Below are positions 8,054 to 54,547 of a stretch of DNA of 64,000 bases, one piece after another (the stretch's first letter is position 1; the number at the start of each line of letters is the position of its first letter). Under the pieces are notes generated by a model. It was given only the letters and a program-made list of their open reading frames with translations, made no database searches and was not told the DNA's origin. Made by a program: the position numbers and the translations under genes. The stretch comes from Hyposmocoma kahamanoa (taxonomy: Eukaryota; Arthropoda; Insecta; Lepidoptera; Cosmopterigidae). Location: NCBI RefSeq assembly GCF_003589595.1, contig NW_020653900.1, positions 1,463,314-1,527,313 on the forward strand, written 5' to 3'.

Positions 8054-9146
8054 CTACACAAAACTTTCTTTACTTATAAAGTCGTATACAAAAATGTTCT
8101 TGTCTCCTCTGTCCTGAGCTGGTACACACACAAACCTATTTTTTCCCTCACTAACGTCTAGAGTTATAGAATATACGTTATTGGTCTTAACATCTAAATT
8201 TAATATTTGTATTTGTTTATTGTTCTCGGTATCATCATTTGCATTATTATCGTGAACTTCTACTAAGACATCATTATTTGTCGCTTCTACAAGGCTTGAA
8301 ATATTTTTAGTTGTTTCATCAACTATATCATCGACTTTATCCTTCGCTTGATTCATTTCAGCTATTATTTTCATACTATTACGTCTTGGATAATCTGCAG
8401 TCAACGGTTCTATTTCTCTTTTTAATACTTCATCTAAATCTTTGAGTTCTTTAGAGTCCTTAGTTTTTTTGCTTTCTCTATTCACTGCGGGTTTCTGCGA
8501 AGATGCTCTGTTACTATATCTTTTCCAAAACGAATCTGACGTATTCTGACTGCTTGAGAACGCCGTTGAGGTTGTCGTGTTAAATGTGTCCCTTCTTTGC
8601 ATGTTCTCTCTAAAAGCCCTACTGCATTTTATCAACTTATTTATTCTTAACAATTTAACAAAACCTTCCCTAAACTTTGATGACATCAAATTGTACAATA
8701 TAGGATTAATCGCCGAATTTAAATAGAGCATTACTCTACAAAAATACAATAGTATATAATAACCATCTATACCTAGTGACATTATTGTCTCGGGTGGGAA
8801 TACGATAATCCAAAGAGTCAATGCTTTGAAGGGTAGAAGACATACAAAGAAGGATAATACTACGGTACCGAGCATAAGGATAACTTGTTTTCTATACCGT
8901 AGTACACTGCCGGCATTGGTAGTGTTTTTTGTGTTTTGCGATATGATAATGGGGTTTTCCATTAGATTCTTCGCTATGACGCTGTATAGGACGAGAAGGA
9001 CGCCGAGTGGGATGATGAAGAAGACAGCAATAGTTAGAATGAAGAACAACGCTGACCAGAATGTATCCGCCTGAGTGAGACAGACAGGCTCCTTGCTTCC
9101 GTCATCGTATTCTTCATAGGTGAATGTTGCCACGGCGAGAATGGGG
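8054..9146 (-). CDS. Class A peptide GPCR, alternative terminal exon B (TM5-TM7 and C-tail)
   Basis: It opens after acceptor atctttgcag and runs 1 + 363 codons to TAG. The phase and first residues (Pro-Ile-Leu) are the same as in terminal exon A. No ATG precedes TM5, so it is a spliced exon and not a free ORF. C22 in ECL2 (VCLTQAD) has identical spacing to exon A. TM5 is about 30-55, TM6 about 85-115 with the CLLP motif at 102-105, and TM7 holds NPILY at 148-152, followed by NLMSSKFREGF. The acidic ECL2 (TYEEYDDGSKEP) differs sharply from exon A (EHHAIHRQDGTTSF). The tail of about 200 residues is rich in Lys, Glu, Asp, Asn and Thr and ends ESFV. It is the distal last exon, about 13 kb downstream of exon A. 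A separate paralogous gene is possible, but no TM3-TM4 exon was seen between the two. Confidence 0.92.
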
Positions 9147-10115
9147 CTGCAAAGATAGAGAACACATTAATTAAATAGTGTTTCTTTAGACCTCGTTATT
9201 ATACGAGCTGCAATTTTTGTACTAATGTGGTAAACCAAGGGGTTAATACAAGTGTAATCTTTAAATAGTTTTACAAATATCAACTTCGGAATCGACTTAG
9301 CGATATACTGATAATGCTGGGTTTCCACGGCCTGTGATTTTAAAGGCCGTTCCAATTCCAGGCGGTCTCGGAACGACACGCATGGTGGCGCGTATTCTGG
9401 TGTGTGTTTACAGCTCTCACCTAGTTTGAGCTATCATTCGAAAATATCATGAGAAGAACTCATAGCTATTTCTGCAGCCACTTTTGTATTATAGTGGATA
9501 CAACATACTTAACAAAAAGAACCAGAAGAAAAGACAATACTGGGTGTTATCATTGAACTAGAGCAGGTTGAGAGTCTTAAGATTTTATTGAATTGAATAT
9601 ATGTAGTATGCTTTACCGATTTATACTAATTACTTAACACTGTCAAACAAGGAATGATTGCTAAACGCACTTGCTTTTGCGCCACGCCTTTGAATTTGAG
9701 TATGTTCACTTGACAAGCATTTGACATGCTTTCAACGAGCGTTGGAGTTTTGTACTACATAATGGCACGCGCTTCTCGGGCGTGCCATTATGTAGCTCGC
9801 GTTGTCACAGTTTTATTGCGAATATTTACATAATTATACAACATTTTCTTCTTTTCATCATCGTTTTATTCTTCACAGAATATAAGGACAAGTTCTTCCC
9901 AAGCCCGTCTTCTTAAAATATTATTCAAATAATATCTATTTGTAATATCCCATATTGCTTTCTCAACGTCGTCTATCAATGATCTGTAATGAATCCGTAT
10001 TAAAGTCTGTACCCGTTTGTACTAAAAATTGTTTAATACACAATCGCAAAAAACCCGTTTTAACGCGTCGAAAACGCACGTTCATGTGAACGGCGGCGCG
10101 GTGATGCGGTACCAC
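9147..10115. other. Intron sequence with a strong hairpin
   Basis: This is intron between terminal exons A and B if they share a gene. It contains a perfect 16-bp inverted repeat at 9755-9795. No exon signature of the receptor is visible. Confidence 0.5.
9755..9795. repeat. Perfect 16-bp-stem hairpin
   Basis: ctacataatggcacgc at 9755-9770 is the exact reverse complement of 9780-9795, with a 9-base loop (gcttctcgg). It is followed by GC-richer sequence. It could be the ends of a deleted inverted-repeat element or an RNA hairpin. Confidence 0.85.
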
Positions 10116-10477
10116 CAGTGGCGGATTTGCAGTCCTGGCCGCCCTAGGCCCCAGGCTATGTAGTCAGTACCAGCCGCCCGTTTCTCAGCACTCATCATAG
10201 ACTGGTAGACTACCTAATGAATTTTTGAACTTTATCGCAAACTTTTATCGAAATCGATTCACAAATTCACTATTTATTATTTTTAATAATTTTAATATTT
10301 TTCTAAGACAATTGATTTGATATATCTCTGTTAGTTTACGGGGCGCACGCCATGGCGCCATTTAGAATATTTAGGTACTCTCAGTTATTTCCTGTGAATT
10401 TTTGTCACGTTTGGCCGCCCCTAAATCTTGCCACCTTAGACCCGGGCCCACTGGGCCTTAGGGCAAATCCGCCACTG
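10116..10477. mobile_element. hAT-type MITE (362 bp)
   Basis: Perfect 15-bp terminal inverted repeats: CAGTGGCGGATTTGC at 10116 and GCAAATCCGCCACTG ending at 10477. The inner parts are imperfectly inverted (ggccgcccta / taagg..ggcc). The flanking octamers ggtaccac and agtacgac match at 6 of 8 bases, consistent with an aged 8-bp hAT target duplication. It has no transposase. Confidence 0.85.
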
Positions 10478-11517
10478 AGTACGACAAACCCATGGTCACA
10501 AAGCGCTCGACAACGAGGGCTGACAATTTTTCGGCGCGGGGCGTTAGGCGATTAACACACTGCACCGCGCCCCGCGACGGAGCGCGGAGCTGCGTTTCTT
10601 AACAGGGAGCAGAGGAAAAATTCCTAATCTTCGATTTGAGTTTAGAGGGGTATATCCACTTTAAAGTTAAAAATAAAGTATTGTATGAGTGGCTATACGA
10701 TATATTCAAGCATAGACATTAATCAGAAACATAAAACAATAAAATTTCCTGGATAGATAAAAATCACGAAATGACCTCTAATTTTCACATTTTTTCAATT
10801 TATCCTCGAAATGCTACAGGTTATTAGGACAAAAATTAGATAATTAATTATATTTATGCATAATCGACAACTGTCACTACGGATTTTTTTAATCCCTTTA
10901 GTTTTAGAGTTATTCTGCTAAAACGCATTTGGTACTTTTAATGCAAAATTCAACATCTCCTGTCGCATGTCACGCGAACTTCAGGCATATATTTGTTTCA
11001 CAAATTTGGGCGAAGCCAACGCAACGTCAAAATTTTTTGGCATGAGAGCTCTTAACGTCATACCGAAGTATCTCAGTTTGTACAGAAAACTCACGCCGTA
11101 CAACACAATAACAACGCGTCTCCTTGCGGGAATACGCATTATGCATTGTCACGCGCACTACGCTGCATGGTGCGGGGCAGTGCAGTGTGATAATCGCCTT
11201 AGCGCAGCGTCGAACGAGCGTGAGCATGTGAACACCAATTTATTGTACGTACAAAATTCGGTAAGTTGTAAGCGCGCGATGAACGCTCGTCATGCGTGTG
11301 TACATGTAGGGTATTATATTTGTGATTGTAATTGTATTATTATATTTTATTATTTTTTTGCGGAGCGAAGGTGGTAAAATTAACAGTATGAAAACAAATT
11401 CGACGCAAGTGCCGTTATTTTGCATGATTTAACATTTACTGGGTTCGCGAAGTAGTAAATTAATTTATTTCCATTTTTATTAACATGGATTTCCGCAAAA
11501 TAACGCCTAACGCCTAA
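10478..11517. other. Intron sequence, nothing coding
   Basis: A GC-rich spot at 10525-10600 (gcgcggggcg / cgccccgcg inverted) is followed by AT-rich sequence. There is a run with many CG and GCGC motifs at 10965-11300, open in several frames but without a recognisable product. Confidence 0.4.
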
Positions 11518-11692
11518 CCCCCTGTTCACACGGCATTGTACTGCACATTGTTTGCGGTATAAATCCGAACCGAATAAACAGTGGATGTAGAACCATTCAC
11601 ACGCTGTTTGTCCTGCAAAAAAATGCGCACACATACAAACGCACATCGAACACTGCAAAAAAACGTGCAATACCGTGTGTGTGAACGGGGGG
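11518..11692. mobile_element. Short inverted-repeat element flanked by a perfect 10-bp repeat
   Basis: The ends read CCCCCTGTTCACACGGCATTG and, inverted, CCCCCCGTTCACAC..ACGGTATTG. Both flanks are taacgcctaa (11508-11517 and 11693-11702). The duplication may be the full 10 bases or only the terminal TAA, so the superfamily (Mutator-like against PIF/Harbinger-like) is open. It is 175 bp and non-coding. Confidence 0.75.
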
Positions 11693-13214
11693 TAACGCCT
11701 AATGTATGAATTATTTACTATGAAAAACATATAGCAGAATTTAAACAGCTTCATTTGAAAGCCCAACCAGTTGTAAGGTTAAACCAATTTATTTGTTCCC
11801 GTAGCTCTTCAAATTCGTTAACAGGCGTGTATGTGGAACCAGGAGACGATACACAAAGCGATGTAGACTGTAATGATAAGGCCTCTAGCGTTATCTGCTT
11901 GTTGAAAAATGACGCTGAAATTCCACCCCAAAACCCATCGAATCGGAAAGGCGTTTTGATTAGGTGCTAAAGCCGGAACGTCAACTGAATGGTTTTCAAT
12001 CAACGTCTGAATGTAGACGGCCATTGCCATTGGCTATAACTTTCGTGAGGGTAAAGGACGACCTTTTGTAATATTTGGCTTATACAGGGTGTAAATAAAA
12101 GGTGTTGTACATGTGTTACTAGCACCCACGAAGCGGTTTGTTTCGAACATAAAGAGTGGAGTTTTCTACTTATTCATCAGACAACAAGAATGTGGGGTCT
12201 TTCATAACAAAAATGAATAGGCACCTTCTAAGCAAGTATTTGCAATCCTCGATGACATGTATATTTCCATTTTCAAAAAATCATAATTTTCAGAAAAACA
12301 TATGTTTTTCCGAATATTTTTCCAATATTATTCCTTTAATTTTCCACATTTGACGTCGACACCTGTCAAAAATTGAAGTTACTGAACGAAAACTATGGAG
12401 CCATTAAAAAAATTTTTTCGCTGTTGTGAAATCATTTTGAATCTTGTTTTTCTCTTTGTAGCTATGCAGGTTTATTTTATAATTCACGTTGAATAAAGTT
12501 TCTAAAGATATTTCTAAACGTAGAACCTTTTTCAAATTTTTTGCGATTTTTTCCGGACAAATTTCCTCTATTTGAAATTTTTCTGAAAATTACCCAACAG
12601 TATGTATATTAATTACAATCAAGTGGGTCAGAGGATTTGAATCCATAAAAAAGTGTCCATTATACAGAACTACATTGGTGAAATAGCTCAGACGCATCAG
12701 TAACAACGATATTGTCAATGTGTTAAATTTCAGTTAAACTTTACTACTGGAAAATATGGCTTTTTTCCCAGTTTTTTTTAACCCCCCGAACGCCAAACGC
12801 AAAGGAACCTAGTGCGGTGTTCTCTTACTAAGCTACCACCGTTCTTAAATATAGATTCGTTAGTATTAAATAAAAAAGAAATAGTCTCTTGCGATAACGG
12901 CCAAGACAAATATTAAATAACGAATTTTCCTGTCCAAATTAAGTTACGAAACACAGTCCTGAAGGAAGACGAAAATAATATTTGCAATTCATTACATAGG
13001 TACACAAAAAAGAGGATTTCCTTTTTTGAAATGAAGGAAAAAACATAAAACCAAATATGACTAACAACTGTCATAATGTAATGAAAATATCAATTGTACG
13101 TAGAAGAACTTTTTCTTTTTAGGATAATAATTTATATGTAGCGCAATGCAGCGTCACCGTGTGGCATCGCTCTTGCCGCAGCCAGGCGATACGACGCACG
13201 GTGTCATTGCGATA
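11693..13214. other. Intron sequence with a low-copy repeat
   Basis: Positions 12290-12500 (ttttccacatttgac, tgaacgaaaac, ttttttcgctgttgt) recur at 26930-27040 and 27450-27560. There is no supported gene. Confidence 0.45.
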
Positions 13215-13375
13215 TTTTTTTATGACAAGTGATAAGACGAAGAAGTCGTATGCTGGTGGAAACGACACGCCTGTTCATAACAGTGGCAGTGCCCCTCAGA
13301 GCTTCAAATCGCAAAGATCTAAGGGTCACTCTTACTACGCTCACCCTAGGGGTCACCCTTAGACATAAGTTGAAG
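13215..13375 (+). repeat. Dispersed SINE-like repeat 'B', partial
   Basis: It matches the family defined by the copy at 29797-30100: t-rich start, 'gacaagtgataagacgaagaagtcgt', 'cagtggcagtgcccctcagagc', 'gacataagttgaa'. Spurious short ORFs here are repeat sequence. Confidence 0.7.
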
Positions 13376-13639
13376 CCGTGCTGTCAGTACACACTTTGGA
13401 AAATGCAATATAGTATAGAACGTAGAAAATTATTGTCTTGGAAGCAAAAGTTCTGAATTTAGCGTTGCTCTTTTTTGGTTACCGACTCAGGACACCATTA
13501 CAGGAAACCGCAGTAGTGACGTAGTCGTCAATACTTACAGGAAAATGAAGCATGTCAATTCTCAATACTTAATCATTTTATAGCTCTCCATAAGAGAATA
13601 GGTGTTATAATCAATTTAAGTACATTTTTGGACCCAGTA

Positions 13640-13872
13640 GGGCATGACTTTGCCACTTTACTTATTTCAGCCGCCGTAGATACCTTACGCCGTAGGGTAA
13701 GGGTGCTGGTGAAATTACAGGCACATGGGACTTGTCAACTCAGGGTGATGGGCACAGTGGCAGTTCCCATAAGATCGTTGCGATTTAAAGCACTGAATGG
13801 CACTGCAGCAGATACGGCGTGTCGCTTACCACCAGGCGCACGACTTGTTCGTCCCGCTACTTAGTATCATAT
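13640..13872 (-). repeat. Dispersed SINE-like repeat 'B', inverted relative to the previous copy
   Basis: It reads the family backwards: 'actttacttatttcagccgcc', 'gggtaagggtgctgg', 'gcacgacttgttcgtccc'. With the copy at 13215-13375 it forms an inverted pair about 270 bases apart. Confidence 0.75.
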
Positions 13873-13875
13873 AAT

Positions 13876-14312
13876 CTCAGTACAGAGTACTAAAAAAACC
13901 GACCTCAAAAGTACGTGGAATTATGTCTATTTGCTAAGTTTTATTGAAATAACGCCTAGTTCACTATACAGGACTTGACACTGGAGATAATAAAAATCGG
14001 TTCTCACTACTCAAAGTTTATTGAGAGAAAAACGCCTTGAATTGGAGAATAGCAAAATCAACCATTAAAGTAGTTGCTCCTAAATTAAAGTTAGGCGCTA
14101 TTTATAGAAATGAATCTTCATGCGTGAACAGCCACCCTTCTAGGTGGATGACTTTCTTCAAAATGTGGAAGAGGGGGTACTTCCAACAAAAACAGAATCA
14201 TGAAAATCGGTTCACAAATACCGGAGTTATCGCGTAACATACATACAAAAAAAAGAACATACAGTCGAATTGAGAACCTCCTCCTTTTTTGAAGTCGGTT
14301 AAAAAAAATTAC
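13876..14312 (-). mobile_element. MITE-like element 'A' (ACCGACTTC ends), near full length
   Basis: It begins agtactaaaaaaaccgacctc and ends cctccttttttgaagtcggt, so the ends are inverted copies of ACCGACYTCAAAA. The middle matches the copies at 19012 and 49361 ('gcgataactccggtatttg', 'aaccgattttcatgattc', inverted here). Non-coding. Confidence 0.8.
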
Positions 14313-16315
14313 TTCAATTGACAGACAGTTAGTTATTAAAAAACTTTTTTGTGGTCTTGTTTTATTTGCAGTCAGTTTCAAACTATAAGCCAATGTTTGG
14401 GGTAGTACGTTTCGCATGTTGAGCGTATCCTTATTGAGGGCATGTACTCTTGAAACAGTGTCGTCTCAACAGGAAAAAAATGGCGTTTTTCATAGCTGCG
14501 CATTGTGAGCTTGGTTGCTAGTTCGTTATTCTAGTCTATTTTGGTATCTGATAGTAGCATTGTGGATTTGATCCTTGGTCTCAAACTAGGGAATTTCCTA
14601 CACTATGAGTACCAGAGCAACGGAATTCACTTTGGGGTTTTTTTCAGAACACCCAGACTCGAACCATTTTAGTAACGTTCATTTTCCAAATTGATCCTAC
14701 CATCAAGCAACTACAGTGCAAACCGTCGGGCCACCTTTTCGTTAAACTTACAATCTTAAGGCGACGTATTTCGACGTGAGCCTAGATTTTAGGAGGTGAG
14801 GTGTGAGGGGTAGCCCCTCGCGTCCTGCAATCTGCGCGCTGTGAATTAATATGAATAAAATAAGAACAGGCGGAGAAAAGTTGATACAGATCGACGTCGA
14901 CGGGGCAGCGGGCGACGCGGCGTGTCTTTAAACCCCACGCTTGCAAATTTTGAGTCACAATTAAATGTGAATTTAATAATTATAGGGCTTCACTTGAAAA
15001 CCAAAACTTAGCAGGTTCTCTGTAGGAGGGGGAAGCGGCGCAGATTCGTACACCTTTTTTTTAACTTTAATTTTGGGCTGCTAAATGAAGTTATAATTAA
15101 TATTTTTTGTACCTAATTAACGATGTAACTAATAAACATTACTAATTGAATTTTTTTTTCAAAAATAGCATTGAATAATTGAAATATTTAGATTTTAACA
15201 AAAAATGGGAATTGTCCAATTCCGCCCCACCTGTGGGGTACTTTGATACATCGCTTGGGGCACTTAGATGTGTGAATCAACGTAGTGTGCCATTTCTGGT
15301 TGCCACGTATTATCAGCACTAGGTGATCAACTGTTCATAAAGTATGACGCTATATGTGCCTCAGCACTTACTAGATCAAGACTTCTTTCTAGGGCACCAT
15401 TTGAAAATTAAGTGTTCTTAATGTAATCTTGGAAGTAGAAATACAGGAGGAAGAGGTGACTATAGCGCAAAATGTCACTAGTTCACCTCTTTACAATAAC
15501 TTGTTAAAATAGTTTTACATTTTTCGTACAAAATAACTAATAGCAGCACTTTGATATATACCAAACTGCCCCACTCACTAGTGTATAAAAGTACTCCACC
15601 GGCTAGTTTAGAAAAAAATATTTATTAAAAAAATTTTCATATATTCTCTCAAAGTCACATGCAATTCTAGTTATTGAAAACACTAGTTTACGCTCTATTG
15701 AGACATAAAAACCTGTAAAGTGAAGAAAACTGCAGTGGCACTCGTATTTGTGTCGCTCTGAGTGGCACTACAACTGTTATGGACAAGTGCACGTCTTGAT
15801 CGCTCCGTCACTTGATATTATAAAAAAACGTGTCAAGTTCCCGACACACACTGCGTCAACATGACTATGGCCTCTTCTTAGAGGAGACCCGTGCCCAGCA
15901 GTGGGACGTGTAATGGTAAAAACAAAAATTTTTTGATGCTGTCACTTCATGTCATCGACTAATTTATCATATACCTACACATCAAACGGCAGTGTTTCAA
16001 ACACGATCGAGTTTAAACAAAGATAATTATTATAACTTATTGAATAGTAAATTTTTAAACTTTTCGATCTTGCAAATCAGTTTTTCCCGCTTCGGTGACT
16101 TCCCTTAATAATAAGGAAAAGACTCTCTGTTGAAATGAAATTGAAACATCGCCGCTTTTTATACTCGAATGCTAATGTTGGGTACAAAATTGTTCCATTA
16201 TTATGTCTTTTGCGTGCAAATAAATGGTCCCTTTCCAGCTGGGGGCCATTCAGAGTTTCTCCCTTAGCATCGAGTGCTTTTAATACAGTGAATACAATAC
16301 AGTCATTTGAATTGG
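14313..16315. other. Intron sequence with repeat crumbs
   Basis: It includes a partial B repeat at 15745-15830 (minus) and an RTE-tail crumb near 15885-15915 (gcccagcagtgggacg). There is a pair of 'gccccac' blocks near 15225 and 15570. Nothing codes. Confidence 0.45.
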
Positions 16316-16865
16316 GACTTGGCATCCTTTCAAAGGTGAGGCGTTACTTTATACCAGGACAGTTGCTGTACCAAGGACAAGTCCGGCCGTGTATGGAGTA
16401 CTGCTGCCACTTATGGGATGGTTCTACTAAATATCAACTGGCCATCTTGGATTCAATCTACAGGCGTGGCAAGAGGTTTATAGGTGACTCGGAAGCCTTG
16501 AACACCGCCGTAAAATTGTCTGCTTATCGGTATTCTACAGGATACATCACGAAGAGTGTACGATGGAATTGCAAAATATAATTCCGCTTTCCCCCTTCCA
16601 TCATCGGGGAACTAGACGTGGGCTGGAGTTCAACTCCTTTGTTGTGGATATTCCCAGGATTCTCAGGAAGCGCTTTCGCCTCGACATTTATATGGTGAAC
16701 GGTTAGGGAGTGGAATTTCCTGCATGCGGACTTGTTTCCCGAAAGCTATAATTGGACTTTTTCAAGGCGAGAGTGAATAGGCATTATCTAGGTGTGCATG
16801 CTACATCGTTGACCTCATCGTCACTTTCCATCAGGTGATATGGAGGTCAAGTGCGCACTTATTTT
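16316..16865 (+). pseudogene. CR1-like LINE, C-terminal and 3' end
   Basis: It reads ILSKVRRYFIPGQLLYQGQ, VRPCMEYCCHLWDG and KYQLAILDSIYRR, the C-terminal region downstream of LINE reverse transcriptases. Frameshifted blocks follow: HHRGTRRGLEFN, VDIPRI, ERYN/FKARVNRHYLGVHA. The 3' end resembles 25412-25665 and 45372-45600. Dead. Confidence 0.75.
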
Positions 16866-17268
16866 TTATATAAACAAAAAACAACAACATCCAGTTGTCA
16901 ATCTATTTAGTTTTCAATAATGCGATAATAAAAAAAGTCATGTAATAACTGTAATATTTTTTTATTAAATACATTTTGGCTATAATAAATTTCACAATGC
17001 AAATTTTCACTTACAATAGATACTTGTATTTCTAGAAGGATCTAGGCTAATATATTGGATCGAGCCTTTCTTTTCTACTTGAAACTGACAATGGCAACAT
17101 ATAGAGCGGTAATGCTGGTCACAAGGATTCCATAGTTAGAAAGCCGCTAAGGCCTGGCTACACAGCCGAATTGCGGTCCTTTGAAGCTTGCACTTGTTTT
17201 CTCTTACACAGCACACATGCATATCATCTTCCCCATTACTACTTTTATTATCATAGTGTAATAGGACC
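16866..17268. other. Intron sequence, nothing recognised
   Basis: AT-rich, without coding or clear repeat structure. Confidence 0.4.
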
Positions 17269-17452
17269 AGTGCTTCTACCATGAGATTACAGAGACAGTT
17301 TTCGCTAGCGACCGCGTAAAATATTTGTATACAATATATTGTTTCTTCTTGTGACCACTAGAGGCGCTGTATAATTTGCACTACAAAATTGTGAAGTTTT
17401 TTATGCGATCGCTAGCGACAACTGTCACAGTAATCTCGTGGTAAAAGCACAC
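17269..17452. mobile_element. Inverted-repeat MITE (about 185 bp)
   Basis: The left end (gtgcttctaccatgagattac ... cgctagcgaccgcgtaaaa) pairs with the right end (ttttttatgcgatcgctagcg ... gtaatctcgtggtaaaagcac). The arms are about 55 bases with scattered mismatches. No ORF. Confidence 0.75.
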
Positions 17453-21779: not shown

Positions 21780-22159
21780 TTTATTAACCATGTTTGTATC
21801 TATTAAGTGGCAGTTGCTTTGAATGTAAAGGTAAACATCTTAAAAATAAATACATATGTTTTTGAGTAGAAGCTTTTCTCTAACAATATGTACTGTTGTT
21901 TACGTATTATTAACACCGTTCATATGCACGCGATAGTTTTGTTCAACAAATGTATAGAATCGAGAGTCCTAAATAAACTGTGTCAAAGAAAGTTTCTTTA
22001 TCCCCCACATTGCAATTCTAACGAAATTTATACTGTACAGTCTTTATCTTCAAACTTTTATCTGGTGTCTTTTGATAGGTCAATTTTTTGTTATCCTTCG
22101 TACTTTTTGTTTTGGCACCCAAATAAATTGAGTCAAAGAAACTTTAACTTACAATGCGA
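21780..22159 (-). other. Probable 3' UTR and poly(A) signal of terminal exon A, with a decayed tail duplicate
   Basis: An AATAAA on the minus strand lies at 21780-21785, about 375 bases past the TGA. The first part (about 21970-22130) is a diverged direct duplicate, offset about 154 bases, of the last coding bases of exon A and its stop region. For example, the CTATCA..AAAGACTGT..GTAT.AATTTC pattern is seen in both copies. The duplicate carries an early stop, so it reads as untranslated. Confidence 0.5.
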
Positions 22160-23201
22160 TCACACAAAACTCTCAGGAAATTCATACTCCACAGTCTTTG
22201 ACCTCAAACTGTCAACTGGTAACTTCTGATAGGATTGTTTTTTCCTATCTTCCAAACTCTTTGATTTGGCAGTATTTATCAACACACTTCGTCTCAACGA
22301 ACCACGATTTCTCTCCTCAGCGTCTGTGTTTTTAGTGCTATTGGAATGATCTATAAACTTGGCGGAATCCCCTTTGGTATATCTTTTATTATCTGCGTCT
22401 GATATTTCACACACGTTGCCTTCACTCCTCATCCTGTTTACTTTCGGTTTTACGCTTACACACACCGGAGCAGACTGTTGTCTTATAAATCGTTTATTTG
22501 TAAAGATTCTTTCAAAGAAGTTTGCTTTGTCATCTTTGCTTTCCTTGCTTTCTAATTCTGTGTCACTTTTGTCCACACTTGCTCTGTGACTGAACAATTT
22601 CTTCAAACTATTGGTTGTTCTTGTCAAACTGCTGCTTGTTGTCGATCCATTTGTAATCGTCCTCTTTGCTCGTCTATTCTGTATCCTCTCCGACGATCGC
22701 TTATAACATATGAATACTTTACAAAATCCTATTCTAAATTTCGACGACATCAAATTGTAAAGAATTGGATTTATCGCTGAATTTATATACAACATTATTC
22801 TAGAGAAATATAATAAATTGTAGAATATCTCTGGGCTTACTTCCTGCATTATCTCATGTGGTGTTACTATTATCCATAAGGCTAATAATCTATATGGCAT
22901 TAAACAAAGAAAAAAGCATAATACGACAGTTCCGAGCATTAAAATTACTTGTTTTCTTGCTCTGGTGTTGTAAGGGTCTACGGTCTTATTCATGACAACT
23001 TTTGAGGCTGCGGTGATTAAATTTTTGGCAATTATGCTGTAAAGAACGATGAGTATAATCAACGGTAGAGCGTATAGAAGTACGATGACCATGACGAAGA
23101 AGGAAATTTGCCAGACGGTGACGGCTTGTGTGAGGCACTCGAAGCTCGTAGTGCCGTCTTGACGATGAATTGCGTGGTGCTCGGCGATTACCAAAATGGG
23201 G
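22160..23201 (-). CDS. Class A peptide GPCR, alternative terminal exon A (TM5-TM7 and C-tail)
   Basis: The exon opens after acceptor tttttacag and runs 1 + 346 codons to TGA. It has no ATG before TM5, so it can only be translated by splicing; the leading C joins AG from the TM4 exon to give Ser, then Pro-Ile-Leu. In exon numbering, C22 in ECL2 (ECLTQA) is the disulphide partner of Cys3.25. TM5 is about 30-55, TM6 about 83-112 with RKQVILMLGTVVL and the CLMP motif at 99-102, and TM7 holds NPILY at 144-148. Helix 8 follows (SSKFRIGF) with Cys160 and Cys165 as possible palmitoylation sites. The tail of about 180 residues is Ser/Thr/Lys/Arg-rich and ends ESFV, a PDZ-ligand pattern. It is the proximal of two last exons. 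Core TM sequence is close to exon B, while ECL2, ECL3 and the tail differ. Confidence 0.92.
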
Positions 23202-39724: not shown

Positions 39725-40720
39725 ATATCTTCTTAGGGTGCCATCTCTTATCGGAGATCGGCTATCATTGTGGCAATTAGAGTCCGTGAAGTTGCGGCTC
39801 GGAACAGTTCTGTGGTACTTATGTTGAACATTTGCAAGATTTTGAAGTTATGTTGTTTTTCTACGACCACGTCTTCTGCGGCTCTGGATTTTTCCCTGCA
39901 GAATGAGCCGCAGTAGGGAGTATTTATTAATCCGCATGATGTGCCCGAAATACCAGCTTCCTCTTTTTTACTGTTTTTAGGAGCTCCAAGCCTTTGTACA
40001 TCCTTCGCAATACGTTGTCATTGGAGACTCTATCCGACCACGATATTTTCAAAATTCTCCGATAAACCCACATTTCGAAGGCTTCCAACCGTTTACATAA
40101 TGTTTGAGTTAGTGTCCATGTTTCTACTCCGTACAAAAGAATTGAAAATATGTAGCACTGCACTAAACGGTATCTTGTCGATAATTTGAGACTACGATTG
40201 CAAAGGAGGTGGCTCATTTTAATAAAAGCACTCCTGGCTTGCTCTTTACGACATCTAACTTCTATGCTGTGGTCTTCCTGGTCATTTACCATACAGCCAA
40301 GGTATTTAAAAGAACGGATCCTGTCAAGTGGTTGGTTCCTAGCGTGGAGGACAGCAAACGTCTGCGGAGCACGGCCGATAATCATATACTTAGACTTTTT
40401 GACGTTAATATTCAGACCGTTCTGTGCGCTGATCAAGTCTACACGATTGAGCAGTTGCTGTAGATCTTCCATGGAGCTGGCAAGGAAAATCGTGTCGTCG
40501 GCATATCGGATGTTATTGATGCGACGTACGTTTACAACAATCCCTTCAGTTGCGTCTTCAAGAGCTTCTGAAAAAATCTCCTCCGCGTAAACGTTGAAAA
40601 GCAATGGTGATAATATACATCCTTGCCTCACTCCTCGTAGTATCCCCATATTCATATCCGGTTTGATATATACATTTATGAATGTTTCGTAGTCGTAAAT
40701 CTCGATTACGGTGGAGGAGT
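39725..40720 (-). pseudogene. LINE reverse transcriptase fragment (242-codon open frame)
   Basis: The best-preserved LINE frame in the left two thirds of the window: GVRQGCILSPLLFNVYAEEIF, then INNIRYADDTIFLASSMEDL (YADD metal site), LNINVKKSKYMIIGR, KYLGCMVN, YGVETWTLTQ, MWVYRRILKISW. Open from 40655 to 39927. After a frameshift a C-terminal block (MRINKYSLLRLILQGKI, RRRRGRRKTTN) continues to about 39730. The N-terminal endonuclease half is absent, so the copy is 5'-truncated. Confidence 0.85.
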
Positions 40721-41198
40721 CTTCGTGATGAAATAGGTAATTTTTAAGTTACTCAGTTATTAAATTTAGTTTTCTCTACGTAATTTCAGTGGCAATTTTT
40801 ATTATTTGAATATTCTAGAAAATTGTCAAGAAGTATGATTCAATATTCAAGTGTAGTATCGTGAAATATTATTTAGTATTCAGGGGTCGAGCGAACAACA
40901 AATGAAATCCAAAGATTTGTACGAAACTGGAGGTTTATTTATTGTAGCAACTTTAAAATACAATACAGTATGAGAGATGTTCTACGGCTACGCAGCTACG
41001 AATCTGGCGCACAAGTGGAAGCAGGTAACGTAGAGGTTTATTTACGGCTATGCAGCTACGAAAGTAGCTACCGAAATCTGTCCCACAAGTGTAAGCAGGT
41101 GACGTAGGCGTGACCTGGCAGGTGTTCCTGCATACCAGCAATACCAGGCTAACAAGTTCCAAAAGAATCCTGCGAGTAGAATCTAACTCGGAAGCGAC
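40721..41198. other. Intron sequence between two LINE fragments
   Basis: It contains a local duplication of 'tacggctatgcagctacga' (40983 and 41043), about 60 bases apart. No gene. Confidence 0.5.
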
Positions 41199-43858: not shown

Positions 43859-43984
43859 ACTCATAACTACTTTTGCGTCTCATTTTAATTTAGGCGGAGT
43901 ACATTACATCTAAAGTGGTACTTATACAGGAAAAACTTAGGTAAACTCGATTACGCATGCGACGATAGCCACATAACCAAAAAA

Positions 43985-44890: not shown

Positions 44891-45371
44891 GCACTACTAA
44901 TTAATATGTTTTAATTTGTTCTAATTACCGTTATTACTTAATATAAAATTAAATTTTATAAAAAATTTACATTGTTAAAATAAAATAATTTTGTGCAACA
45001 TAAAATGTGGTGTAAATTGGAACGTTTCTTTGAAAATTTTAAAAACAAGGTATTCAATTAAAAACTTTCGCAAATAGTGAAAATTACAAAACAAATATTT
45101 TTTTTTAAACTTAAAGAAATTACTAACAAATAAAAGCTATTATACTGTAAGATTTTTTTGGAAGAAAGCAACTAGTTGTAAATATGTATATTTGTTTAAA
45201 TTTAGTTTTAATTACAATAGAAAAAGTAAATATTATAAAAACATTAAATTATATAAAACTGTTGGTAGATATTTAACTAATTACATGTTAAGTCAATGTA
45301 ACAATTATGACTAGTCCTCTCTTCTACTATTTGCTGTGGCCTAATTCAGGTTCCATAATTTAAAGTACATT
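44891..45371. other. Very AT-rich intron sequence
   Basis: No gene or defined repeat seen. Confidence 0.45.
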
Positions 45372-45600
45372 ATGTTATGGTATCACCGGGGGACTAGGCG
45401 GAGGCATGGGTTCTACCCCTATGTTGTGGATATTCCAAAGATTCGCACGAAGCGCTTCGCTTCCACATTTATATGGCAAACGCCTATGGAGTGGAATTCC
45501 CTGCCTGCAGACTTGTTCCCTGAACGTTATAACTTGGGTCTTTTCAAGGCGAGAGTGAATTGGCATTATTTAGGTGTGCATGCTCCAAATTTTATTAATG
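45372..45600 (+). pseudogene. CR1-like LINE C-terminus and 3' end
   Basis: An open frame reads FYPYVVDIPKIRTKRFAS, TPMEWNSLPADLFPERYNLG and LFKARVNWHYLGVHAPN, the last coding block of the same LINE family as 16316-16865 and 25412-25665. This copy keeps frame. Confidence 0.8.
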
Positions 45601-45639
45601 CAAGGTGTGCATTAATATTAAACATAGCTATTTGATGAC

Positions 45640-45745
45640 TTTACCATCTCAGTAAACGGCGACCATGGGACCTGTAAAGGCTCCGAAAGGTGGGTTTGTT
45701 TCAATAAACAATATACTTGTACTAGATCCGAAAAACAGTTTCATT
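45640..45745 (+). repeat. Single arm of the foldback repeat family
   Basis: 'ccatgggacctgtaaaggctccgaaaggtgggtttgtttcaataaacaatata' pattern, related to 6553-6718. Confidence 0.6.
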
Positions 45746-46104
45746 CTTCATTTGTGTTTTTTTTTAAGTAATAGAAACACTTCGGAGTATATTTGAGAAA
45801 ATTAATATGTACTTTGACAATAGAACTTATATTATACTAAAATAGTAAACAAGAATCTATACGTAAGTATATATTCGACCTAGCTTTAAAGTTTCAGTTC
45901 CCGAATCTAGCTTTCATGAATTCCTTCATTTCGTATTCCTGCTTTATAGGGCTTTTTACATGCAAGACAAATACTTTCTAGCTTCTGCAGTCAGACGAAC
46001 TTGCATGATAAATCTGGCAATGACTACTCGACACACAAAATTTCCTTAATAATAATATTTTGCTATGACTCAACATAACCAAACATCAAATATCGAACAC
46101 CTAG

Positions 46105-46430
46105 AAAAAATTTCTTCGATCCGGTTGGATGCGAACCAACGTCTTCCAGCAAACGTTTGCGGAACGCTATGCCAATTACGCCACGGAACGAACTAGTGGA
46201 CCTTAAGACTTTCTATGTGTGTGTTGCAGATTTTTATTTTTAGTTTTTAACGACTCTTTCTGCCCGACTGACTGAGTGAAGAAAAGCTTTCATAGATTTC
46301 TCACAGATGACGCGACGGCCAAAAATCGGACACGCTTTGCTGGAAGACGTTGGTTCGAATCCAGCCGGATTGAAGGAATTTTTTCTCAGTGTTCGATCTT
46401 TGTATTAATAATTGAATATCATGTTGATCA
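46105..46430. repeat. E repeats, inverted then direct
   Basis: 46105-46262 is an E copy on the minus strand, with 'ttcgatccggttggatgcgaacc'. 46263-46430 carries plus-strand E blocks ('tcacagatgacgcgacgg', 'cgttggttcgaatccagccgg'). Confidence 0.65.
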
Positions 46431-46482
46431 AACATCGTGACATTCAATAAATTTAAAAATGACAACATAATTTTTTTTTATG

Positions 46483-46712
46483 ATATCAAGCACTTCACGG
46501 CCTGGTAGCAAGCGACATGCCTATCCCTGACAGTAGCATTGCCACTCAAAGCTTTAAATCACAAAGAGACACTACCACTGCACCTGTCGCACTGTAAGTT
46601 GACAAGTCCAATATGCCTGTAATGCTCGTATTACTGCTTGGCGGCAGAAATAGGTAAGGTGGCAGCACTTTCTTGGACGAACTCATTCACAAGGAGCTCT
46701 ACTGCTACAGAA
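46483..46712 (+). repeat. Dispersed SINE-like repeat 'B'
   Basis: Collinear with 29797-30100, diverged, ending 'ggagctctactgctac'. Confidence 0.75.
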
Positions 46713-46857
46713 CTTCGGGGGTTTGCTTGGTATACAACCAGACTATAACAGTTTAAAAATGTTCATTGCACAAATCAGCTTGATCGAATTGAAGTTGAGA
46801 CATCCTTATCTAGCGCCTACAGTACTAACCGCATTACCGAAAGTAAAAAAAAAGAAT

Positions 46858-47250
46858 ATATCGCACCCTTAGTAATATAAGGGCACAATCCAAAAAAAGT
46901 AGATTTTTGGGAAATCGCGTATTAAGATTCTGGATTCCTACATTACACCTATTTTTTCAATTAACATGCTTATTATTTAAGTTATAAACATGAAATTTGG
47001 CAGATTTGTTCTTTGATAAATGTATTATAAATAGCAATAAAAAAAAAAAATAATATAAATAAATTCTATAAGTTTCAAGCAAGTTAAAAAAACACTTTCA
47101 AGTTAGACCCATATAGTACAAAAAATATAACAGAAATATGGAGCTATTTAAGTTTGATCCCATTTATTATTTAAGTCCCTATCAATTCCCAAATTTCCCA
47201 AAAATCTACTTTTTTTGGAATGTGCCCTTATATTACTAAGGGTGCGATAT
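46858..47250. mobile_element. Palindromic MITE, about 393 bp
   Basis: Arms of about 60 bases: atatcgcacccttagtaata ... aaagtagatttttgggaaa, and the reverse complement ending tactaagggtgcgatat. The loop is AT-rich and non-coding. It begins and ends with AT/TA, so a TA-type target site is possible. Confidence 0.85.
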
Positions 47251-48130
47251 AACTATGTAATATATTGTATTACAAGAATCGTTACAAATAGTAATAAAAG
47301 TTACATTTAAAAAAATTACAAATATCCTGTACAAGTTTTGTACTATATAATTTTAACATAGTTAATGTAGTTTTAAGACATTTTAAATAATATAATATAA
47401 TAATAATTATGTCAATATAATGATTGTATGCGTTAAGTTTATGTAATTTATCCATTTCTGTAAAATAATATTTGTACCTAATAATTTAATAAATTATAAC
47501 ATATAGGTATTACAAGATCACGTCTTTATATTCTTCGGTGGAATAATACGCATTATCCAACAAAAGGTCTTTCAGTTGACGATCAAATGTTTCATAATTA
47601 GGCTGTTTTGTCAAGTCAACGGGTATCACAATAATCGCTACTAAAAACCGCCGTGTGTAACCATTCTTATTTTTTTAATGGGTAAACCTCTCAGAACAGG
47701 AAAGAACTAAAGTCCATTTAACAACTGAGCCCTAAATTTTTTGGTACAGCTATATATTACGAAAATACAATAAAACGTTGTAAAGCCTGTACGTAGCGAC
47801 TGTACAAATAAAGTGGCTATCCTAATAAACAATAAATCGAATGAACATTTCATCGACTCCCAACCATTTATTGCTCGGTCGAACGGCCATTCGTGTAATG
47901 GCTTCAATTGTTATTTCACAACGCGGGTTTTGTTCAAAAGGCCTATGCGATTGATATAAACTGTTATCGCCTGTATCACCATAGCATATGAGAATTACGC
48001 GTAGCATGAAATTTGTGAGGGTGATGTATTTTAATACGTCCCCGTGTCTCAATGCGGTAGCTAAATACTGTGGGTCACCTTTGGCAACATTGATTGCTAC
48101 TTTTACAACAGATTACAATTAAAATAAATA
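47251..48130. other. Intron sequence with unassigned open frames
   Basis: On the minus strand, 48052-47822 (RHGDVLKYITLTNFMLRVIL ... RPSNKWLGVDEMFIRFIVY) and 47640-47520 (LTKQPNYETFDRQLKDLLLD) are coding-like in places but broken. I cannot assign a family. Confidence 0.35.
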
Positions 48131-48149
48131 CTACAATTCACTCATAACA

Positions 48150-48800
48150 ATTCTTTGGAAGATGCCTTCTAGTTACTGGACTGGAAAGAACTCGGCATCG
48201 ACGTCAATGGCGAGTACATTACTCACCTACGGTTTGCTGACGATATCGTGGTCATAGCAGAAACGTTGGAAGAGCTTTAGTACCGTGCTCGGTGACCTCA
48301 AAAGAGTTTCCCATTGCAGCAGGTATGTCTAAAAGTTAACATGGATAAGACGAAACTTATTTCGAATGTCCATGTAGTGCCCACTCCTATAATAGTGGGA
48401 ACCTCTCGCTGTTGTTGACGAGTATGTCTACCTCGGACTAACCGTCCAATTAGGCAGAGCCAACTTCGATAAAGAGGTCAATCGTCGAATCCTACTCAAA
48501 GTACCGGGACGTCTTCTTATCCGCAATACCGCAATCCTTGAAGAAAAAAGTCTTTGAGCAGTGTGTGTTGCCAGCGATGACCTACGGCACTGAGACGTGG
48601 TCACTTACTATGGGTCTCATGAAAAAGCTCAGTCACTCAACGCGCAATGCTCGGCATTTCTCTACGTGATCAAATCAGAAATGAGGAGACCCGTAGAAGA
48701 ACGAAATTTACCGACATAGCTCAAAGGATTAGCAAGTTGAAATGGCAGTAGGCTGTTCAGTGGGACGGCCACCTACTAAATGAACGGCTGACCTAGTAAG
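48150..48800 (+). pseudogene. Decayed RTE-type LINE reverse transcriptase
   Basis: Plus strand: LDWKELGIDVNGEYITHLRFADDIVVIAETLEEL, stop, then VNMDKTKLISNVHVVP, YVYLGLTVQLGRANFDKEVN and, frameshifted, VFEQCVLPAMTYGTETWSLT and MRNEETRRRTKFTDIAQRI. Collinear with the better copy at 60323-61131. Several frameshifts and an internal deletion. Confidence 0.8.
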
Positions 48801-48854
48801 TCGACAGGTACGAGTAAGTCTTGTCAAATTCTGGTAACTATAAAGTAACCTGTG

Positions 48855-49290
48855 AAGAACAACTTTCATCGATTTCTCACAGTATCGCTGCGGCAATAAA
48901 GCTGTTAAAATAAAAACAAAGATCTATAACAAACATATTATAGAGATATTCGTGAGGCTTGCTGATACAGGGGGTTTACTCTCGATCTCCGTACGGCATC
49001 CGTCCGAAACAATTACTGCCAAATAAGCAATACTTGACCAAGTGAAAAGACACGTGTTGCGAATGAAGCTTCATACTGGATACTTGTCTTTTAATTTTGT
49101 CGAATATTATTTATTTGACAGTAATTGTTTTGGACGGATGTCGGACGGATATCGAGAGTAGCCCCACAGACACAGCTTCAAGTTTTGCCAGACCGAAACA
49201 TTGACCTTGTAGGTCAATGGATCGAAAGTAGTGTTCTTCGTGTTCAATCTTTGTATTAAAAATTATAACAAAGTAGTGGAGTAATTTCAC
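48855..49290 (+). repeat. E repeat split by MITE 'G'
   Basis: Left part 48855-48967 ('tttctcacagtatcgctgcgg', 'attcgtgaggcttgctg'), right part 49170-49290 ('cgtgttcaatctttgtattaa', 'aacaaagtagtggagtaatt'). The tRNA-like core is where the MITE sits. Confidence 0.65.
48968..49168. mobile_element. Palindromic MITE 'G', second full copy
   Basis: Same arms as 27223-27418 with a few substitutions (gggggtttactctcgatctc / gatatcgagagtagcccc). Confidence 0.85.
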
Positions 49291-49360
49291 AAAAAATTAA
49301 TTAATATAATGGTTATAAAACATCATATTCATTAAAATCAATATAGAAATGAAATTGTTT

Positions 49361-49835
49361 TTTAACCGACTTCAAAAAAAGGAGGAGGTTCTCAATTCGA
49401 CTGTATGTTTTTTTTTGTATGTATGTTACGCGATAACTCCGGTATTTGTAAACCGATTTTGATGATTCTTTTTTTGTTGGAAAGAGGGCACCTCCATATT
49501 CCAGGTCCAATTTTGAAGAAAATCATCCACCTCTAGGGGTGGCTGTTCGCGCATTAAGATTCATTTGTATAAATAGCGCCTAAATTTTATAATAAGGAGC
49601 AATTATTTTAATGGTTGATTTTGCTATTCTCCAATTCAAGACGTTTTCCTCTCTCAATGTACTTTGAATAGTGAGAACCGATTTTTATTATCTCCTGTGT
49701 CAAGTTCAGTATAGTGGCTAACTAGGGGATGAATCCGGGTTTGCGCACTTTCCGCTAACCGATCTCAATAAAACTTGACAAATAGATGTAATTCCATGTA
49801 CTTTTGAAGTCGGTTTTTTTAGTACTCTGTACTGA
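49361..49835 (+). mobile_element. MITE-like element 'A', most complete copy
   Basis: Start: aaccgacttcaaaaaaagga. Then 'gcgataactccggtatttg', 'gattctttttttgttggaaa', 'catccacctctaggggtggc', 'gatttttattatctcctgtg', 'ttgacaaatagatgtaattcc', and end 'cttttgaagtcggtttttttag'. The inverted ends are ACCGACTTCAAAA. No ORF. Eight copies occur in this window. Confidence 0.8.
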
Positions 49836-50199
49836 TTCAGATTTATATCGTGTATATTTGTTTGGGATCATGGGACCAGTAAAGTACACAAAACGTTTGT
49901 CTGAAACAAAAAGAGATTTAGTTCAGAATAAATACTTTAATTTTCTATGTTTAACAATCGCGAAAACCTAAGAACTCTACTAAATTAAGGAGCGAAAACA
50001 CTATATTCGGGTTTATAAGATATTGTGGTTCGGACAAAAATGCCGTAAACCCATAAAAATTGGCTATTACTAGTAATATTCTTGATTTACACATCCAGGT
50101 ATGTAGTCTGAAGGGATTCCAATTCGTATCAGTTCCGAATCTGAGAAATGACGGTCCGAAATGTCACAGGGATCATTTTAGTAGTAGTGTTGTTTGTTG

Positions 50200-51222
50200 T
50201 TTGCAGACAGACATGACATTAACTATGACCATATTAATGATACCCTCTCTAAGGTAGTTTATTGGTTTAATGCTAATAATGTATTGCTTAATGCCAAGAA
50301 AACAAAATGTGTTAAATTTTAATTACCTAACGAAAAATCGATTAGTCCAAGCATAGAAATAAACGGAGAAAAGTTAGACCTTGTTAATAAAGCAGTCTTC
50401 TTGGGAGTGGACCTTAGATAGTAAACTTCAATGGTTTCCACATATATCTTCCCAGGCCAGCAGATTAAGCTCCGCTGCATACGCAGTCCGCAGAATACGT
50501 GAGCTTACCGATGTTAGTACTGCTAGACTAGTTTACTTTAGTTACTTCCACAGTATAATGTCCTACGGGATTCTCATGTGAGGTAAAGCGGCAGATATTC
50601 AAACCATATTTGTATTGCAAAAACGAGCGATTCGTTCTGTGTACCGTCTAGGCTCTCGGGTTTCTCTCAGAGAAAAGTTTAAGGAGACTGGTATCATGAC
50701 TGTGGCATAACAGTACATTTACTCAAATATTTTATATGCCCGTAAAAATATACATAATTTCAATAAGAAAGAAGGTATCCATAATATTAACCTTACAGCT
50801 AAGTTCAAACTCATGGTACCACGATTTCGTTTAACCAAGGTAAACAACTCTTTTATGGGGAACTGTATACGTTTTTACAATAAGATTCCGGAGCATATAT
50901 TAAGTTTATCATTTCCTAAGTTTAAAAACTACATTAAAAATATTTTGATCGAAAAACCATACTACAAAATTGAAGACTACGCTTTAGATAAAGATGTATG
51001 GAAAGACGACATGGCTCCAGAATCCACACAAATTTGATTCAAAGTGTATTCCATAGCATTTAAGTTTATTTGAAAAGAGCAATCCCTAGAGTTTCTTGCT
51101 CGTTCTTCTCAGGGAGGTCAGCGTAGTGAACGAGCAGTAGCTTAAATGTGACGTTTTCAAGTGTAAATCTATTTTACCTATGGAATAAATAATCTTTGAC
51201 TTTGACTTCGACTTTGACTTTA
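50200..51222 (+). pseudogene. LINE reverse transcriptase C-terminal half with (TTTGAC)n tail
   Basis: Nearly continuous coding: VYWFNANNVLLNAKKTKCVK, INGEKLDLVNKAVFLGVDLD, WFPHISSQASRLSSAAYAVR, VYFSYFHSIMSYGILMWGK, VLQKRAIRSVYRLGS and FYNKIPEHILSLSFPKFKNY to stop near 51036. Broken by a stop and two frameshifts. The 3' UTR ends gaataaataatctttgactttgac. Jockey/CR1-type by layout. Confidence 0.8.
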
Positions 51223-53056
51223 TCTCTAGGTGTACAAGCCATATTCGTATTTTCTCTGATTCCGAAGTAACATCCGACATCCAAAATAAATCCGAGTTTT
51301 CTAGATTTGTAGTCTCGGATTCGGAATGAAAACGGATCGGATGCAGTGCGTAAATGCGCTAACGGTTTGATATACTGCCTCTCAAGTAAAGGCCGAGGGT
51401 CTGATTCGGGCTCGCACCTCTGAGCATCAAAAAAGCTAATTGAGTACAGCCTGCAGAAGCTGGGGTTATAAATTTGTCCTGTACTTCGCTTCAGATGTTT
51501 GTTCGTAGTAGTAGAAAACTACAAGTTTTCAGTTTGTTCCTAAAAATAATAAAGGACTTGCTGAATTCCTAAATCTGCCAAACTTTGCCACATTTAATAC
51601 AACGTTAACATGTTCTATCGCAATGAAAATGAAAAATTAAATCTACCCAAATGGCATAAATCTGCTACAAATGGTCACACTGTTCTCAATCTCAAAGTGA
51701 CATTGACTATAGTAAGAGGCCTCTTGACAAAACGTTCCTTTGCTAACTTTCGTATCTCTCATTTAAATATTGTCTAAGCACTTTTATCACATTGTGTTTT
51801 ATTTTTTACTATAAGTCATTATTGTTTTATTGATTATTTGATTAGGTATTTTATAGCTTTGATGTTTATGTGTGTACTATAAAATAACCAATTCTTTAAG
51901 TAGGTAAACATTCAGTCATGCTTAGAATGAAATGTACGTACAAGAACGTTACCTAGTCTATAGTCGAACTGAATTAATTGCTTTATGTTCTTTCATCTAT
52001 TCTAAAATTATATAGCAATTTCTTAATCCCGACTTCTACAAATATACAAAAATATATTAATAACTATGCATAAACTAAAAAGTAATTATACTCGCAAAGC
52101 CCATGAACTTCGTTGATTTTGGGTCAGCTTTCACCATCCTTCTTTCCTTCTCAAGGTTCACAAAACTCGAAAAATGTGTAAAGTTCCCAACCCGCATTGG
52201 GCCAGCGTGGCGGACTGTGACCTAAACCCTCGTTTCCTGCAGTGGGATGTATAAATGGACGTAAAAATATTGTTGTACAGAATTGTTTTTAACTTATTAC
52301 TATACATCGCCACAGCCACCCCTCTTTGTTTAATTTGTCACATAAATTGAATTCGGCCAAAAGTTAATTTGATGAAAGAACGAAATTTAGTAGTGCACGA
52401 TTGTGCCACTTCACACTAATGTTGATTCGTACCATTGAGTCAAGTTTTATATGGTTTTCGTTACTGATATTGCCGAAGTTAAACGGAACTGGAGAGGTCT
52501 AAAGTTATGTTTAACAAATTTTATTAGATTTTATGAACGGATATAAATGAAACTTTATATAGGTTTATGGTAGGAAATTATATATTAAAATTCAAATAAC
52601 ATCCCCGTTACACTTCTTAAAAGACAAAAGGGATGGTAAATATAATTACTCGCATCCTTAAGAGTTGAGGTTGTATAACCTCAATTCGTTGATTTCGCAT
52701 AGCAGTGAAAAGCTTGAATCAATGACTATGGAATAATTGAGGATATATACTGATTATACTACACGGTGAGAACACGATTCCTAAAAACGTTCACCATAGA
52801 ACAAAAAAACACAAACTTACCTCGAAATTTGACAAGAAAACCGATGTATTCAATATCACTTTACATATACCAATGATTTTTTTTATATCAACTAAACTAA
52901 ATAGAACACGTATTATACTATACGATTTAAATTTTTCAAATAGCTTTTATTTCGTTTGAAAAAGAAAATTAATTCTGAAATAAAGACTGTGTATCTACCG
53001 CTCGACTCGAGCAAAATGAACCGTATTAGTACGGGAAAAATTTTAATTAGAGCTGA
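51223..53056. other. Intron sequence
   Basis: 51238-51370 resembles the flanks of the MITE at 27223 (an apparent empty site). An RTE-tail crumb lies near 52230-52255 (ctgcagtgggatgt). The rest is AT-rich with no gene. Confidence 0.45.
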
Positions 53057-53364
53057 GATAGTATTGTAGTCTAGGCTTTACTCTATGAGTAGAATCACTG
53101 GCTGAGTGAATATAGTTTTGTAGTTAGAATGTTTAGCTTGCTTAGGATGCGTAGCGAGAGGTACTTTTGTGAATATAAACTGGGATAATCTTCAAAGCTT
53201 GCTTTATTGCACTTTTCTACATATTTTCTAATTCAGGTTACATCTCGAACTCTCAAGATGTTCTGTTCTTTCTTATTCCATTTTTCAAAATACATTCTAA
53301 ATACAAAACTATATTCACTTAGCCAGTGATTCTACTCATAGAGTAGAGCCTAGACTACAGTATC
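53057..53364. mobile_element. Palindromic MITE, about 308 bp
   Basis: Arms of about 75 bases: tgtagtctaggctttactct ... ggctgagtgaatatagtttt, and the reverse complement ending agagtagagcctagactaca. The loop of about 150 bases is non-coding. Confidence 0.85.
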
Positions 53365-53424
53365 GACTCTTAATAAGGCCAGATCTGCAAAATGAAATTA
53401 GTCGTTAACTGAAGTTAACCTTAA

Positions 53425-53640
53425 ATTGAAGATAATTATTAATACAAAGATCAAACATTAAGAAAAATTCCTACGATCTAGCTGGATTAGAACCAGCGCC
53501 TTTAGCATACCGTGCGAGACGCTCTCCCAACTGAACTACGGAATGAACCAGCAGACTTTACGAATTTTCGTAATGCTTGTAGCAGGTCCTTGTTTTTGGT
53601 TTTTAACGACTTTTTTTATATATGTTTCATATCTAACAAC
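53425..53640 (-). repeat. tRNA-like repeat 'E', inverted
   Basis: 'aattattaatacaaagatcaaac', 'cgatctagctggattagaacc', 'tcccaactgaactacggaatg' and 'tttggtttttaacgac' are the reverse of the reference copy at 33291. Confidence 0.7.
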
Positions 53641-54366
53641 CGTCTTTTTTCAGAAATATATCTTAATGTCTCGACTTCCGAGGGTAAATGGTAATCGAAC
53701 CTGAGGCTTTTTAATTCTTAAATCTCAGCTGCGGAGCCAGTCATCTTGCAGAAATTTTGGAGGTGGGACTGGGCCAATGCGTCTGACGTCATACAGTAAT
53801 GCCCGCCGTCGCTACACTCCAGGGTTATAACTTATTGCCCTGCAATTGCATTAAGCGTTTTCGAAGGGAATTGTAGCAAGCCAAAACCACCCCAGTGTCA
53901 AAGCTGGGTGTACAGTTATTTCGTTCCAATGCCTGTGGTTAAAATAAGCTATCACCAAATCGCTATGGTAATGCACCGATGCATAGTCTGCAAACGCAGC
54001 GTTGCTGTCAAATAAACGCTTGTTTAAATATTCGTTTAGTCTTAACGTAACTATTGTAAGTTTTAATATTGGTAGGCAGTGGGGAGTTTTGTGATCAGTA
54101 GCTTCTTAAACTGCCTTAAGCAATCTACGCCCAGCACTGATGGCTGGGAATTATGAAACTTAGTGGAAGTATAAGAAATATAAAAACTGATATATCATAA
54201 AAAATAAGGAGAACTTTAACATCTGGCTACACTTTTAAAAGTGATTGTATGAAGAGAAACACAACATGGGATATTCTCTGACCAGAAAGTTATGAATATG
54301 GACTGATTGGCAAAAACCCCCATTGCTCTACAAATAGCACCAATCACCAAAAGCAAAATACCTTAC
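53641..54366. other. Intron downstream of the TM4 donor
   Basis: No further receptor exon seen. The donor GTAAGG is at 54361-54366. Confidence 0.5.
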
Positions 54367-54547
54367 CTAGTAAAGAGAGCTGCAAAGAACCAAGCCAGAG
54401 CGCAAATAAGGGTGGCACGAGTCTTCGTACACACGTATCCCGCTCGTAATGGCTCGCAGATGGCGTAATACCGCTCGAAGCTGATCGCCAAGATTGTCAG
54501 CACTGACGCGTGCGCTACCGTCAGCTCCACAAATGGTACTGCTAAAC
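54367..54547 (-). CDS. Class A peptide GPCR, internal exon (TM3, ERY motif, TM4)
   Basis: The minus strand encodes 59 whole codons, read L-A-V-P-F-V-E-L to A-A-L-F-T. It starts with two bases (GT) finishing a split codon and ends with two bases (AG) opening another. The acceptor is ttctctgttccag at 54548 and the donor is GTAAGG at 54366. Residues 1-23 are TM3, E24-R25-Y26 is the DRY/ERY G-protein switch, ICL2 carries AICEPLRAGYVCTK, and residues 44-59 are TM4 with its conserved Trp52. By alignment to class A receptors, the split 5' codon falls at position 3.25, normally Cys, so the upstream exon should end in T (TGT). The donor phase fits both terminal exons at 23201 and 9146. It is a plasma-membrane neuropeptide or hormone receptor, resembling the insect CNMamide / ghrelin-TRH receptor-like group. 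Class A is certain; the exact receptor is not. Confidence 0.93.

Follow-up and report, generated by a model that had tools for sequence, protein, structure and literature searches.

An ecdysis triggering hormone receptor gene with predicted alternative ETHR-A and ETHR-B last exons in the moth Hyposmocoma kahamanoa

A stretch of 64 000 nucleotides from Hyposmocoma kahamanoa (contig NW_020653900.1; hereafter the window) carries on its minus strand one exon encoding helices TM3-TM4 of a receptor and, downstream of it, two exons that each encode TM5-TM7. The question raised by this locus is whether a single gene joins the first exon alternatively to either of the other two, giving receptors that share their first half and differ in TM5-TM7 and tail, as was claimed in an initial annotation.

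The TM3-TM4 exon common to both forms (54547-54367, minus strand, 181 bases) was delimited by its splice sites, its reading frame, a match to the profile PF00001 (7tm_1) and a match to the public protein P0071, residues 137-194 of which it reproduces at 100%. With the exon boundary marked by a slash, its acceptor reads TTCCAG/GTTTAG and its donor CTAG/GTAAGG; split codons flank the exon, which carries the final two bases of one at its start and the first two of the other, AG, at its end. The proximal alternative last exon (23201-22160, minus strand) was recognized by its acceptor, open frame, PF00001 match and position in a tree, and the distal alternative last exon (9146-8054, minus strand) by the same features together with identity to P0071. 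Both encode the end of TM4, ECL2, TM5-TM7, a C-terminal tail and a stop, and correspond to silkworm exons 3a and 3b respectively. The proximal exon starts at 23201 with TTTTTTACAG/CCCCATTTTGGT and ends in an in-frame stop codon at 22162-22160; the distal exon starts at 9146 with ATCTTTGCAG/CCCCATTCTCGC and runs to the last base of its stop codon at 8054. Both acceptors (TTTTTTACAG/C and ATCTTTGCAG/C) are canonical and phase-matched, the C completing with AG a Ser codon that is followed by Pro-Ile-Leu. Exons, splice sites and phases were all observed directly, and the donor phase and paired acceptors restoring Ser-Pro-Ile-Leu, which the initial annotation had claimed, hold in coordinates and in frame. 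The predicted intron is 31,165 bases long when the common exon is joined to the proximal exon and 45,220 bases long when it is joined to the distal one. A motif scan placed the nearest AATAAA/ATTAAA, as candidate poly(A) signals on the minus strand, 374 bases downstream of the proximal stop (21780-21785) and 88 bases downstream of the distal stop (7960-7965).

Both joins remain open up to a single terminal stop and, counted from the first whole codon of the common exon, encode 406 aa (A join, proximal exon) and 423 aa (B join, distal exon). The proximal exon reads cleanly through 347 codons in a phase that matches its acceptor. No other stop-to-stop run on the minus strand is as long as those containing the distal and proximal exons (370 and 358 codons), and 40 mononucleotide shuffles gave runs of at most 176, so these open frames are not due to chance. 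PF00001 was matched by the common exon at profile positions 62-116 (E 7.2e-13, 49 bits), by the A exon at 124-260 (E 3.4e-16, 59.9 bits) and by the B exon at 121-260 (E 3.3e-16, 60 bits), all above the curated cut-off of 30.5 bits; positions 1-61, representing TM1-TM2, fall outside the window. By this profile, the predicted gene product is a rhodopsin-class GPCR.

Searching the whole window by tblastn with the common exon returned one real match (E 1e-34) and five others with E values of 2.0 to 9.2, so that no second TM3-TM4 exon was detected there, as had been claimed. The further claim that TM1-TM4 as a whole are shared can be seen to hold in the window only for TM3-TM4, as a tblastn search with P0071 residues 1-137 yielded two matches (E 3.0 and 8.7) and no TM1-TM2 exon. 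A motif scan of the stop-free runs produced nothing convincing as a further TM3-TM4 or TM1-TM2 exon. The TM1-TM2 part is present in P0071 (558 aa).

The gene is the moth copy of ethr, which encodes the ecdysis triggering hormone receptor of insects. Along its full length of 423 aa the B join matches P0071 at 100% identity. This H. kahamanoa protein, named "QRFP-like peptide receptor isoform X1", runs straight out of the common exon into the distal exon; the B junction is therefore on public protein record, and the label "isoform X1" implies that a second isoform exists. Among the matches listed, those to the B join named as ETHR were Plutella variant B (75%), Antheraea ETHR-B (76%) and Bombyx isoform B (75%). 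The top-scoring listed match of the A join was an unnamed fragment, P0001 (96% across 85% of the query); its other top listed matches were lepidopteran proteins, many labelled TRH receptor (Epargyreus, 76%), and its ETHR-named listed matches included Anticarsia ETHR isoform X1 (73%), Plutella variant A (69%) and Antheraea ETHR-A (68%). By these matches, close relatives of the gene carry the name of ETH receptors, with Anticarsia, Plutella, Antheraea and Operophtera represented among those listed for the A join and Bombyx among those for the B join. Many listed matches bear vertebrate or other database labels, including QRFP, TRH, GHSR, SIFamide and kappa opioid receptor.

P0071 is the only H. 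kahamanoa protein among the matches listed (best 120 of 902, of 912 and of 390), and none of those listed was an A-form protein of this species. An identical A-form protein would have ranked top, and we therefore infer the A junction from the sequence and from orthology.

The A and B halves share 48% identity across 235 residues. TM6 and TM7 had been claimed to be the same in both exons; the TM6 stretch is indeed identical in protein, but TM7 is identical at only 14 of 17 residues. The codons used are identical in only 7/13 for the TM6 stretch and 6/14 for TM7. With roughly half of the codons different, recent gene conversion is not the favoured source of this protein identity; selection acting on old duplicates fits better.

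Assignment of the two exons to the A and B types was made from an unrooted tree of 72 rows of TM5-TM7 halves, comprising the two from the window and 70 from 54 proteins, which were picked by name among the 202 collected at that stage. The proximal exon fell in a 9-row lepidopteran clade of A-type halves (support 100/100) and the distal exon in a 9-row lepidopteran clade of B-type halves (support 100/99). Halves of the B type from many orders made up one 41-row side of this unrooted tree (97/89), and A-type halves from different insect orders formed no single supported clade in it. By homology and by tree position, both observed directly, the proximal exon is accordingly classed as ETHR-A type and the distal exon as ETHR-B type.

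The position of the junction was compared in nine moth and butterfly species, picked by name, for each of which a full-length A and a full-length B protein, whether from cDNA or predicted, were collected, leaving out species whose models were partial or fused. In all nine pairs the A and B proteins diverge within a few residues past the same Ser at the end of TM4. Ahead of that Ser the two proteins are identical in eight of the nine pairs, those of Antheraea differing at two residues (35 and 39).

These pairs bear on the reading that the window holds parts of two separate tandem receptor genes, with the TM1-TM4 exons of one lying beyond the window or lost, so that one of the last exons would be part of another gene or a fragment of a pseudogene. 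Such an arrangement would be in keeping with the B form being the only H. kahamanoa protein among the matches listed, with no model of the A join among them. Against it, the first four helices are common to the A and B proteins of other moths, tblastn found no second TM3-TM4 exon in the window, and the A exon is a clean 347-codon frame with a fitting acceptor phase; moreover, the silkworm ethr has been published as one gene with exons 3a and 3b (PMC8175484). Two genes are therefore considered very unlikely.

A set of 249 proteins was collected from the searches, taking the best 120 listed per search and counting overlaps once. Two TM5-TM7 halves were found in a single chain in 29 of these (P0023, P0039, P0203-P0208 and 21 more), eight of them from moths and butterflies. 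This would be expected if the gene encoded a single long receptor with both halves in series, the A exon being spliced or read through into B. That explanation is barely credible, as the A exon is closed by its in-frame stop and contains no GTRAGK donor motif, and separate forms have been published. The chains with two halves are probably fusions made in gene prediction and thus artefacts of annotation. Their second half favours the B exon of the window over the A exon in 29/29, while the first half favours A in 15 (in some by few bits), is tied in one and favours B in 13; in the lepidopteran chains the first half is clearly A-favouring in 8/8. This pattern suggests two exons in tandem with A first, the order seen in the window.

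The same chains bear on the age of the pair. Locust and mites are described as having one ETHR (PMC8291126), a single variant was cloned from S. gregaria in a study that left the existence of a second unsettled (PMC5394484), and crustaceans, Daphnia excepted, are described as having single ETHRs (PMC13234976). Two models with two halves each were found in both Schistocerca gregaria (P0045, P0054) and S. americana (P0047, P0055), the two in each species lying on contigs of equal length. Schistocerca may have both exons and perhaps even a second ethr-like locus. The second halves from leafhopper, cockroach, stick insect and locusts were placed on the B side of the unrooted tree and the first halves from leafhopper, cockroach and stick insect outside it, which supports an old duplication, but the Schistocerca first halves also fell inside the B-type side, three of these four rows being flagged for odd composition. 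That paired A and B last exons predate the holometabolous insects, in A-then-B order even in lineages, such as locusts, for which a single form is reported, is proposed tentatively, at slightly less than an even chance.

The arrangement that best explains the locus is one in which a common exon 1 (TM1-TM2, beyond the window) and exon 2 (TM3-TM4) would be spliced to the proximal last exon to give ETHR-A; when the proximal exon is skipped, exons 1 and 2 would be spliced to the distal last exon to give ETHR-B. Each form would have its own stop and probably its own candidate poly(A) site, the proximal site being used in A. On the strength of the phases, acceptors and open frames, the identity of the B join to P0071, the relatives named as ETHR, the tree, the 9/9 junction pairs and the silkworm plan, we are close to certain that this is one ethr gene in which exons 1 and 2 are joined alternatively to an ETHR-A or an ETHR-B last exon. 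Exon anatomy, phase, the tree and the silkworm plan agree in placing A and B last exons, running from the end of TM4 to the C-terminus, on shared exons, the A junction being predicted. By analogy with published orthologs, both joins would be expected to occur in H. kahamanoa, ETH peptides would presumably be the ligands of its receptors, and its two forms may be unlike in ligand sensitivity and reside in different neurons.

Three of seven open frames tested in the window matched PF00078 and represent reverse-transcriptase fragments, at 39927-40748 (minus strand, E 5.7e-18), 60318-61115 (plus strand, E 2.9e-08) and 4786-5256 (minus strand, E 6e-10). As judged by this profile they are the remains of retroelements, lying within the long intron and flanking the exons on either side. 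Two further open frames, at 50711-51037 and 57730-58053 (both plus strand), are similar and have long stretches of protein in common (FPKFKNYIKNILIEK and YKIEDYALDKDVWKDDMA); they are likely to be copies of a dispersed repeat.

The initial annotation was right in outline as to mechanism, and both the sequence and published orthologs support its central claim of one gene whose two last exons encode differing TM5-TM7 regions and tails. It did not name the receptor as ETHR, and its view of the splicing as unusual is not supported. The arrangement is real but already known, since splicing into ETHR-A and ETHR-B has been described in insects, including the silkworm, which has the same exon plan (PMC8175484), with like reports from Bactrocera, Anopheles, Drosophila and Leptinotarsa. 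ETHR splicing is a clear example of a single gene exchanging the second half of a seven-helix receptor. The H. kahamanoa ethr extends the set by one moth genus and leaves the general understanding unchanged; it may serve to correct gene models from which one form is missing or which were given the names of vertebrate hormones.

The vertebrate ghrelin (GHSR), neurotensin, neuromedin U and TRH receptors are also rhodopsin-class peptide receptors, and the best solved match of the A join was GHSR (E 1.7e-26 over 223 residues); no ETH receptor was found among the solved matches (both from the best 60 of 527). Among insects, CG5911 of Drosophila and others are reviewed as one gene with two splice variants, ETHR-A and ETHR-B (PMC3510462). 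Anopheles AGAP002881 likewise gives variants ETHR-A, of four exons, and ETHR-B, of five, but there, unlike in the window, the A/B differences are described as extending beyond the last exon (PMC8291126). The ethr of Bactrocera dorsalis is described as having shared 5' exons and exon 4A or 4B (PMC5572281) and that of Leptinotarsa decemlineata as having four exons, with the final three helices isoform-specific (PMC7736071); in both, as in the window, one of two 3' exons provides about the last three helices and the tail, whereas the halves are more diverged than in H. kahamanoa and the species belong to other orders. The closest comparison is with Bombyx mori ethr (BNGR-A6-A/BNGR-A6-B, or ETHR-A/ETHR-B), which is described as having four exons, with exons 1 and 2 shared and 3a and 3b mutually alternative, the latter encoding the end of TM4 to the C-terminus or ∼60% of the protein (PMC8175484). 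In the same account, PETH/ETH peptides activate the Bombyx receptor, and ETHR-A and ETHR-B are unlike in ligand sensitivity and found in different neurons (PMC8175484). The species and the sequence differ, yet the Bombyx B-form protein (P0094) is 75% identical along the entire H. kahamanoa B join, and the same two shared exons are followed by 3a or 3b.
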